NCBI GenBank assembly: GCA_017540085.1
Contig: JAFYBQ010000037.1
Location: 1 to 64,000 of the forward strand
Length of the DNA stretch: 64,000 bases
From: Synergistaceae bacterium
GTDB taxonomy: Bacteria > Synergistota > Synergistia > Synergistales > Aminobacteriaceae
Reading direction: 5' to 3'
Positions 19,536 to 41,312 of this stretch are shown one piece after another (position 1 is the stretch's first letter; each line of letters starts with the position of its first letter). The notes beneath the pieces were generated by a model. The model made no database searches and was not told the DNA's origin. It was given only the letters and a program-made list of their open reading frames with translations. A program made the translations under genes and the position numbers.

Positions 19536-20240
19536 GTGAATATGTCCTCCGTGATTCTTGCTGATGTACCCCGTGAAAATTTCTGCCTGCACTGAATGTT
19601 ACTGTACCGATGATGATATGCCCTGCGTGATTATGGCTGATGTACCCTGTGAAAAATTCTGCCTGCTCTAAATGTTACTGTCCCTATGATAATATGCCCT
19701 GCGTGATTATTGCTGAGGTACCCTGCGTGAAAATTTCTGCCTGCCCTGATTGTTGTCCCGATGATACCGCCTCCGTGCTTCTTGCTAATGTATCCCGTGA
19801 AAAATTCTGCCTGCCCTGATTGTTACTGTCTCGATGATAATATGCCCTCCGTGATTATTGCTGATGTACCCCGTGAAAATTTCTGCCTGCCCTAATTGTT
19901 GTCCCGATAATGATACCGCCTGCGTAATTCTCGCTGATGTACCGTGTGAAAAATTCTGCCCGCTCTGAATGTTACTGCCCCTATGATGATATGTCTTGCG
20001 TGCTTCTAGCTGATGTACCCTGCGTGAAAATTTCTGCCTGCCCTGATTGTTACTGTCCCTATGATGATATGCCCTGCGTGCTTCTCGCTGATGTACCGTG
20101 TGAAAAATTCTGCCCGCTCTGAATGTTACTGTTCCGATGATAATATGCCCTGCGTGCTTCTCGCTGATGTACCCCGTGAAAAATTCTGCCTGCCCTGATT
20201 GTTGCTGCCCCGATGATGATATGCCCTCTGTGATTCTTGC
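19535..20240. repeat. Tandem array, about ten copies of a ~76-bp unit
   Basis: The block TGCGTG/TCCGTG followed by TGCTGATGTACC recurs at about 19548, 19624, 19700, 19772, 19849, 19921, 19997, 20075, 20151 and 20227. Spacings are 76, 76, 72, 77, 72, 76, 78, 76 and 76. Each unit also has GTGAAAAATTCTGCCTGCCC and CCGATGATGATATGCC, with scattered substitutions. Shorter units carry GTTGTCCCGATGATACC instead of GTTACTGTCCC. The copy nearest nagA contains that gene's ribosome site. The unit length is not a multiple of three, so overlapping frames here are unlikely to be coding. No unique spacers exist, so it is not CRISPR. Confidence 0.9.
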
Positions 20241-40228: not shown

Positions 40229-41270
40229 TTACACGATGTATTTGTTGAGGACAGGAATATGATTGAGGAGGGCGGAAATTCCGAACGAGATCACGAACAC
40301 AATCACAGAAATTACAGGGATGGAAATTAACGGGCTGAACGTCAGCGGATTGAGTCCGAATTTCCCGACAAGCCTTATCACAGCGACATGGACAAGATAC
40401 GCCCCGAATGAGTACCGCGACAATGCCCGGATGATTCGCGAAGGCCAGTTGAATTTTACCCGGAAGAATACGAACACCATCACCGCTTCAAGCATTACAT
40501 TTACGGTGTGGGAGGCATAAAATTTCCCGAAAGCCCCGCCCGTGAACCGTGAGGCATAAAGAGACACAAACACTGTCGCCGTAAACCCAGCAGTCCCAGC
40601 AATGTATATCAGGCGTTCAGCCCTGCGCGAAATATTTACCCTGTTCAGGAAATATCCCAGAAGAAAATACCCCGCAAAGCCTCCGACAAAATGAAGCTGA
40701 AAATTTCCGGCGGTGTTGCCCGCAAAATTTCCGAAATGCTCCGAGAACAGCGAGATTATATTGACCGTCTCAGGAACAGCAAACGCGAACAAAAACGAAA
40801 GCGCAAGGAAATATTTTGTCAGCGATTCCGACTCCGCAATCTTCTTCACGAACGGAACAATCATATACAGCCCCGCAATCATGTACAGAAACCATAGATG
40901 ATAATGTCCCTTCAGGAAATGCCCTGCCGCCTTCATGATGTCCCTGTCCTTTATATATCCGTGAACGGCATAAAGTAATGACCAGAACAGAAACGCCGTA
41001 AATATCCTGAATATGTACTTGCTGTAAATTTTCCTGACGGGAATATCTTTGCTGAGGAACAGCGCACCGCTTATCATCGTGAAGACTGGCACAGCCCACC
41101 GCACTATGCTGTCATAGAAATTCATCGCAGCCCATTCAGCCGTGCGAATATCCGTATCGTACCATTCCCGCGCCGCAACATGAAGTACCATCACCGCAAA
41201 CGCCCCGAATACCCGCAAAAAGTCAAAATAGTGGCATCTGCTGTCTGCTGTCTGCTGTCTTAATTATCAT
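40229..41270 (-). CDS. Acyltransferase family 3 membrane protein, apparently phase-variable and OFF
   Basis: The body is an acyltransferase-3 protein with ~10 helices, the catalytic LHVAA near the start and FLYMIAGLYMIVPFVKK. Such enzymes O-acetylate surface glycans. The best start is ATG 41270 with GAGGAGG 9 nt upstream, but it reads only 15 codons to TGA at 41223-41225. The conserved N-terminal segment RCHYFDFLRVFGAFAV lies in another frame, and nothing before it in that frame can start except the mid-motif TTG at 41218. Between ATG and body are three GACAGCA repeats. Removing one unit joins MIIKTADSR directly to CHYFDFLRV. The gene follows the AsmA/TamB-like gene on the same strand. Confidence 0.8.
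41239..41259. repeat. Heptanucleotide tandem repeat (3 units) in the acyltransferase start
   Basis: Plus strand TGCTGTC x3 (minus GACAGCA x3), flanked by partial copies, lies between the ribosome site/ATG and the conserved coding region. Seven is not a multiple of three, so gain or loss of a unit by slippage changes the frame. Two or five units would give the full-length protein; three do not. Confidence 0.85.
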
Positions 41271-41312
41271 TAATATGCGCCTCCTCGAAATTTCAAGCGT
41301 AATACTCCCGAT

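Follow-up and report, generated by a model that had tools for sequence, protein, structure and literature searches.

A candidate phase-variable acyltransferase locus and its genus-wide counterparts in Synergistales

An acyltransferase gene split by a heptanucleotide array

The window, the whole 64,000-nucleotide stretch analysed here, is positions 1-64000 of contig C37 in the 42-contig, 2.17-Mb draft genome (G000) of a gut-associated Synergistales bacterium. The nearest public relatives of this genome are labelled uncultured Fretibacterium sp. and Synergistales. On the minus strand, a gene for an AsmA/YhdP-like protein, whose product matches the TamB/AsmA NCBIfam models under their cut-off, is followed 42 nt downstream by GAGGAGG-CGCATATTA-ATG, in which CGCATATTA is the 9 nt between Shine-Dalgarno (SD) sequence and start codon. 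A perfect 7-bp array and an acyltransferase body come next (Table 1). The body matches PF01757 at E=2e-35 and 122.9 bits against a curated cut-off of 31, over positions 2-325 of the 326-position profile.

Table 1. Features of the acyltransferase locus in the window
Feature	Position	Strand	Basis
AsmA/YhdP/TamB-like envelope protein gene, 1459 aa	41313..45692	-	ORF list; PF05170 E=1e-13
-35-like TTGAAA of the conserved promoter-like leader element	41291..41296	-	leader comparison
Shine-Dalgarno GAGGAGG (SD AGGAGG, spacing 9)	41280..41286	-	sequence reading and SD scoring
-10-like ATTAAT, overlapping the start codon; TATAAT in most relatives	41269..41274	-	leader comparison
Start codon ATG of leader frame MIIKTADSR...	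41268..41270	-	position conserved in relatives
Putative switch array (AGACAGC)x3 + AGA, 24 bp perfect, 3.4 copies	41237..41260	-	repeat reading
Acyltransferase body, 335 aa, PF01757 Acyl_transf_3; out of frame with ATG as assembled	40229..41236	-	profile search

Start codon and body lie in different frames, and the array lies between them. The frame opened by the ATG at 41270 reads MIIKTADSRQQMPLF and ends in TGA after 15 codons, while coding for the body N-terminus CHYFDFLRVFGAFAV begins at 41236, in frame +1 with respect to this ATG. On its upstream side, TGA TAA closes the frame of the body, and no ATG, GTG or TTG follows these stops before the domain; the earliest in-frame start, a TTG at 41218, already falls within the conserved domain and has no SD sequence. 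Removal of one 7-bp unit joins MIIKTADSR to CHYFDF in frame. The locus has the layout of a translational simple-sequence-repeat (SSR) locus, with a perfect array, of a unit indivisible by three, between start codon and body. As assembled, the gene is OFF. An initial annotation, made from the sequence alone, had described this arrangement: the SD and ATG opening a 15-codon frame, exactly three GACAGCA units (41259-41239), an acyltransferase N-terminus in another frame without a start, its fusion to the leader by deletion of one unit, and the OFF state. All its numerical statements agree with the sequence. None of 100 dinucleotide-shuffled versions of the window contained the GACAGCA x3 21-mer.

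Recurrence across the genome and the genus

Arrays at this position are common in the genus, which largely supports the repeat-switch reading. We sampled 43 genomes, one per species, in which about 115 matches to PF01757 exceed the family cut-off, and read the starts of 112. In 54 of the 112, a perfect array of 5-, 7- or 8-bp units ends at most 60 bp from the domain. The initial annotation, sound for the single locus that it treated, understated the scale, as there are many such loci in genome and genus. Copy number runs from 2.4 to about 14. About 24 distinct units occur, none a multiple of three in length: AGACAGC, AGAGAGC, GAGTCAG, AGAAGGC, GGAAGCA, GTTGCCC, GGCAACA, CAGCCAA, AAACAGG, GGTCTCA, TCAAGGC, GGCTCAC, GAGCAAC, GGCTTCAG, ACCAG, GACAC, AGAAC and others. 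A stop codon appears on the sense strand in 0 of 24 units and on the antisense strand in 8 of 24.

Bodies at array loci occur in all three reading frames. The best SD-preceded start was in frame with the body at 10 scorable loci, in +1 at 17 and in +2 at 14, with one stop, giving 10 ON and 32 OFF; the ON share is compatible with one third (p=0.25). Five of the 54 array loci have no scorable SD start, and seven arrays lie at contig edges. Comparison with all non-array PF01757 genes gave p=0.054 and is indecisive because many of those genes lack a recognisable SD sequence. At 79 homologous loci checked outside the genus, three of them array-less genus members, no comparable array was found beyond a weak GCGCT x2.8 inside one gene, and three homologues elsewhere in the order carry none.

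Two orthologous loci reveal copy number and unit sequence changing in place. The AsmA-like neighbour marks one of them and stands beside nine acyltransferase genes, the window's included. Here AGACAGC is present in 3.4 copies in the window genome (G000:C37), out of frame, and in 2.4 copies in G029:C132, in frame through the array, so that copy number predicts frame; G029:C132 is not a clean ON allele because the gene is frameshifted further down. Other species carry AGAGAGC (G004, G022), AGAAGGC in 4.1 copies (G027) or GAGTCAG in 7.0 (G016) and 12.0 copies (G062), and two have no array and are in frame (G010, G031). The second locus, beside tsaD, has AGACAGC in 14.4 copies in frame (G031:C8) and in 3.4 (G003) and 2.9 copies (G002) out of frame, AGAGAGC in G033, and no array in G006 and G029. 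The relatives thus do not all hold three units, those at the AsmA locus having 2.4 copies in frame, 3.6-12 copies of other units, or none. Nor do repeat-free relatives of the window gene share its frame break: G010:C15, G031:C6, G006:C51, G011:C7 and G013:C47 all start at an ATG ahead of the domain and stay in frame. Mapped onto the body tree, the 10 unit labels require 17 changes and cluster no better than shuffled labels. These comparisons suggest that the array keeps its place and function while its sequence is replaced, as selection for variability predicts; inheritance of a chance repeat is hard to square with this pattern.

The window genome holds several further loci of this kind. Its acyltransferases on C12 (with a TTG start), C25 and C6 are ON as assembled, and the C25 array has 9.4 copies. 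Another acyltransferase, between tsaD and leuD, is split by the assembly inside its array (C8 end and C36:1); its leader has ACG where ATG is expected, and the copy is unscorable because the contigs break in the array. The idea that a single start recombines with the two bodies on C36 and C37 was rejected, since the C8 end bears its own leader after tsaD and the second copy therefore has its own locus; recombination is retained below as an improbable rival. Contigs end inside arrays at C36, C8, C5 and C41, which would fit arrays too long for the assembler, or mixed lengths. A 55-bp pure-repeat lead in G010:C7 fits one k-mer, and array length would then explain the contig breaks. At one contig end (G000:C41:18984-19067), GAGTCAG x12 stands with a switch leader, and the gene downstream is absent from the assembly piece.

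The same module precedes genes of other families. In G034, AGACAGC arrays lie before GT2- and GT4-family glycosyltransferase genes and just before a gene for an FkbH_N-domain protein; GAGTCAG arrays lie before GT2 genes in G061 (two) and G027, and before a gene for an FrhB/FdhB_C-domain protein in G062. With functions read from domain families, this occurrence before acyltransferase and glycosyltransferase-type genes points to a genus-wide surface-glycan phasome.

Frame-shifting arrays stand out against the genomic background. Genome-wide counts rest on a 0.81-Mb sample of the 2.17 Mb, picked partly from contigs with PF01757 genes. It contains 12 perfect arrays of 4-, 5-, 7- or 8-bp units (at least 2.5 copies and at least 15 bp), 11 of which lie either in a switch-type leader or at a contig edge that hides any leader. 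The background rate is about 0.1% per 75-bp window, and arrays precede 2 of 297 SD-preceded ORFs, both of them array acyltransferases. Arrays of at least 3 copies and at least 18 bp comprised units of 5 bp (2), 6 bp (4), 7 bp (5), 8 bp (3) and 12 bp (1) plus one homopolymer; three Markov-simulated copies of the sample held none. The 6-bp arrays (at least 3 copies) all sit inside ORFs and so shift no reading frame. Those of 5, 7 and 8 bp have the common leader, except for one 5-bp run in the window (22106) and the C5 array, unscorable because its contig begins in the array. Behind them lie five acyltransferases, a GT8-like gene, a GT2 gene and an aldo/keto reductase-like ORF at the C5 edge, and two more have no clear gene downstream. 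Across the genus, GACAGCA x3 is found in 6 of 43 genomes and its reversed control pattern in one only, there as an unrelated ACGACAG array; GAGTCAG x3 is found in 10 of 43 and its control in none.

Other repeats were noted along the way. An ACGACAG x9 array (G024:C37:5976-6038) lies near a phosphoglycerate-mutase-like ORF without the usual leader. In the window genome, a G11 tract (C3:3246) parts a 400-aa ORF of unassigned family from an upstream start and is a probable homopolymer switch; a G10 tract (C36:38010) lies inside a thiamine-pyrophosphate (TPP)-enzyme-like ORF that is currently open; a C10 tract ends C36 on the right; and a C11 tract on the minus strand (C25:42509), within a TTGACA-TATAAT spacer of 20, resembles a promoter spacer of variable length. 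An intergenic run of 19 G adjoins murC (C37:88897), and the window has a large imperfect tandem array of 76-bp period and about nine copies at 19539-20240.

A promoter-like element at the array

Most array leaders carry an element resembling a sigma70 promoter. TTGACA-N(14-19)-TATAAT, with at most two mismatches and ending within about 11 bp of the array, is found in 47 of 52 leaders, compared with 3.4% of leaders after shuffling and 11 of 53 PF01757 starts that lack an array. TTGACA occupies the same position in 3 of 298 SD-preceded ORFs, two of which are array genes, so the element is no general feature of gene starts. One leader type has SD and ATG inside the element, the other has SD just upstream and ATG inside. 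In both types, a transcript from the element itself would begin in the array and leave out the start codon. The window copy is weak, with three mismatches. A second promoter further upstream of the SD was considered and not retained, a -10-like hexamer being weakly enriched there (24 of 45 regions against about 13 in shuffles).

The element plays no part in the contingency-locus explanation given below. It may be a second promoter or a relic, or it may serve to open the array for slippage. A more specific version of the last idea, for which we would give long odds, is that the leader is a standard switch module copied before dozens of surface-glycan genes, in which the bubble of a strong sigma70-type promoter opens the array and raises slippage while the coding mRNA is made elsewhere. 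If true, the element would be a transcription-driven hypermutability device at all of these genes.

Interpretation and comparison with known systems

We read the window locus as an SSR contingency locus of the translational type, switched ON and OFF at random and part of a genus-wide phasome, with a probability of about 0.88. Its anatomy and frame relation are directly seen, as are their recurrence over genes and genomes and the copy-number and unit differences at orthologous loci. Translation would initiate at an SD-preceded ATG ahead of a 5'-coding array with a unit length indivisible by three; slipped-strand mispairing would add or drop units and move the body in or out of frame with the ATG. 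Slippage is the probable mutational route, and switching in the population would be reversible. The outcome would be random ON/OFF expression of a membrane acyltransferase, probably decorating a surface glycan, and the same leader-plus-array module would serve many surface-glycan genes of the genus. Acylation of a surface glycan, possibly O-acetylation, is suggested by the PF01757 family; searches for a substrate clue returned no close solved structure by sequence (PDB) and no NCBIfam subfamily. Slippage at the window locus may be slow because three units are few, and more frequent switching is expected of the longer arrays in this genome, with 9.4 and about 12 copies. Random variation of the surface coat seems to be a trait of this lineage.

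Decay of the window copy into a pseudogene, either after a former switch became fixed OFF at three units or through an ordinary mutation at the break, is improbable. The array has just 3.4 copies and damaged kin exist, among them the ACG leader of the second copy in the genome, internal stops and frameshifts in the G029 copies and a stop in a GT8 gene with the switch leader. The 335-aa body, however, is uninterrupted and covers the entire PF01757 profile, and the break lies exactly at the array, as do some 30 other out-of-frame loci with mostly open bodies. Even less probable is that the array is no switch and the gene is expressed despite its frame, with ribosomes starting weakly at TTG 41218, shifting frame on the repeat or translating a leaderless message. 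That TTG is in frame and retains the LRxxxxxxxxxxH segment, and the promoter-like element lies at the array; against this, the codon has no SD sequence, falls within the conserved domain and is replaced by CTG in some relatives, the units contain no start codon apart from TTG in one, and the SD-ATG of the leader is conserved across unrelated units.

Recombination between loci, with leader and array serving as sites that swap acyltransferase bodies instead of or besides slippage, is about as doubtful as decay. It draws on the two copies in the window genome, which are 87% identical over 78 nt of leader and array and only 50% identical in their bodies, on near identical leaders before different genes and on the scatter of unit labels over the body tree. 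Yet arrays are short (15-100 bp), the same orthologous position can hold unrelated units, and array length could account for contig breaks at arrays. That the repeat count is an artefact of assembly or sequencing is the least credible alternative. Several contigs of this 42-contig draft do end inside arrays (C36, C8, C5 and C41), but the array at 41237-41260, being 24 bp long, fits within a read and is bridged by unique flanks, and another species (G003:C127) has the same OFF form with 3.4 copies.

The contingency-locus reading would bring repeat-driven phase variation, known chiefly from pathogens and a few Proteobacteria, to a phylum whose gut and oral anaerobes have been little studied. We found no report of phase variation for Synergistetes, Synergistota or Fretibacterium, a weak negative since most subscription papers were outside the search. 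A lineage that keeps rebuilding the same switch from unrelated repeats would be strong evidence for selection on surface variability itself. The survey also provides a catalogue of candidate switchable glycan genes with a consistent promoter-like element at the array that is easy to probe.

By analogy, the closest known single case is neuO of Escherichia coli K1, and the mechanism would be that of a classical SSR contingency locus. In both, a gene for acyl transfer carries a heptanucleotide array at the 5' end of its coding sequence, and neuO acts on a surface sugar. NeuO is a soluble, prophage-borne enzyme of the hexapeptide-repeat type, whereas the window gene is chromosomal, its body matches the membrane family PF01757 only, and many unit sequences and many genes share one leader. 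The neuO array, in the capsule O-acetyltransferase gene of prophage CUS-3, consists of 3-53 copies of AAGACTC; the gene is ON in one residue class of copy number only, and 34% of loci fall in that class (PMC13001214).

Frame-shifting repeats at the 5' end of LPS- and glycan-modifying genes also make up phasomes in Haemophilus, Neisseria and Campylobacter (PMC6321876, PMC5953494). Those are mostly tetranucleotide or homopolymer tracts, whereas 5-, 7- and 8-bp units predominate in the Synergistales set, with one conserved leader. Units of these three lengths have been reported in H. influenzae, where a 4-unit pentanucleotide in hsdM switched at a high rate (PMC2651432). In hmw1A and hmw2A of the same species, the copy number of promoter heptanucleotide repeats tunes transcription (PMC2651432). 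The Synergistales loci resemble these in having 7-bp arrays adjoining a promoter-like element and differ in that their units, never multiples of three, lie between start codon and body, which points to the reading frame as what the repeats control.
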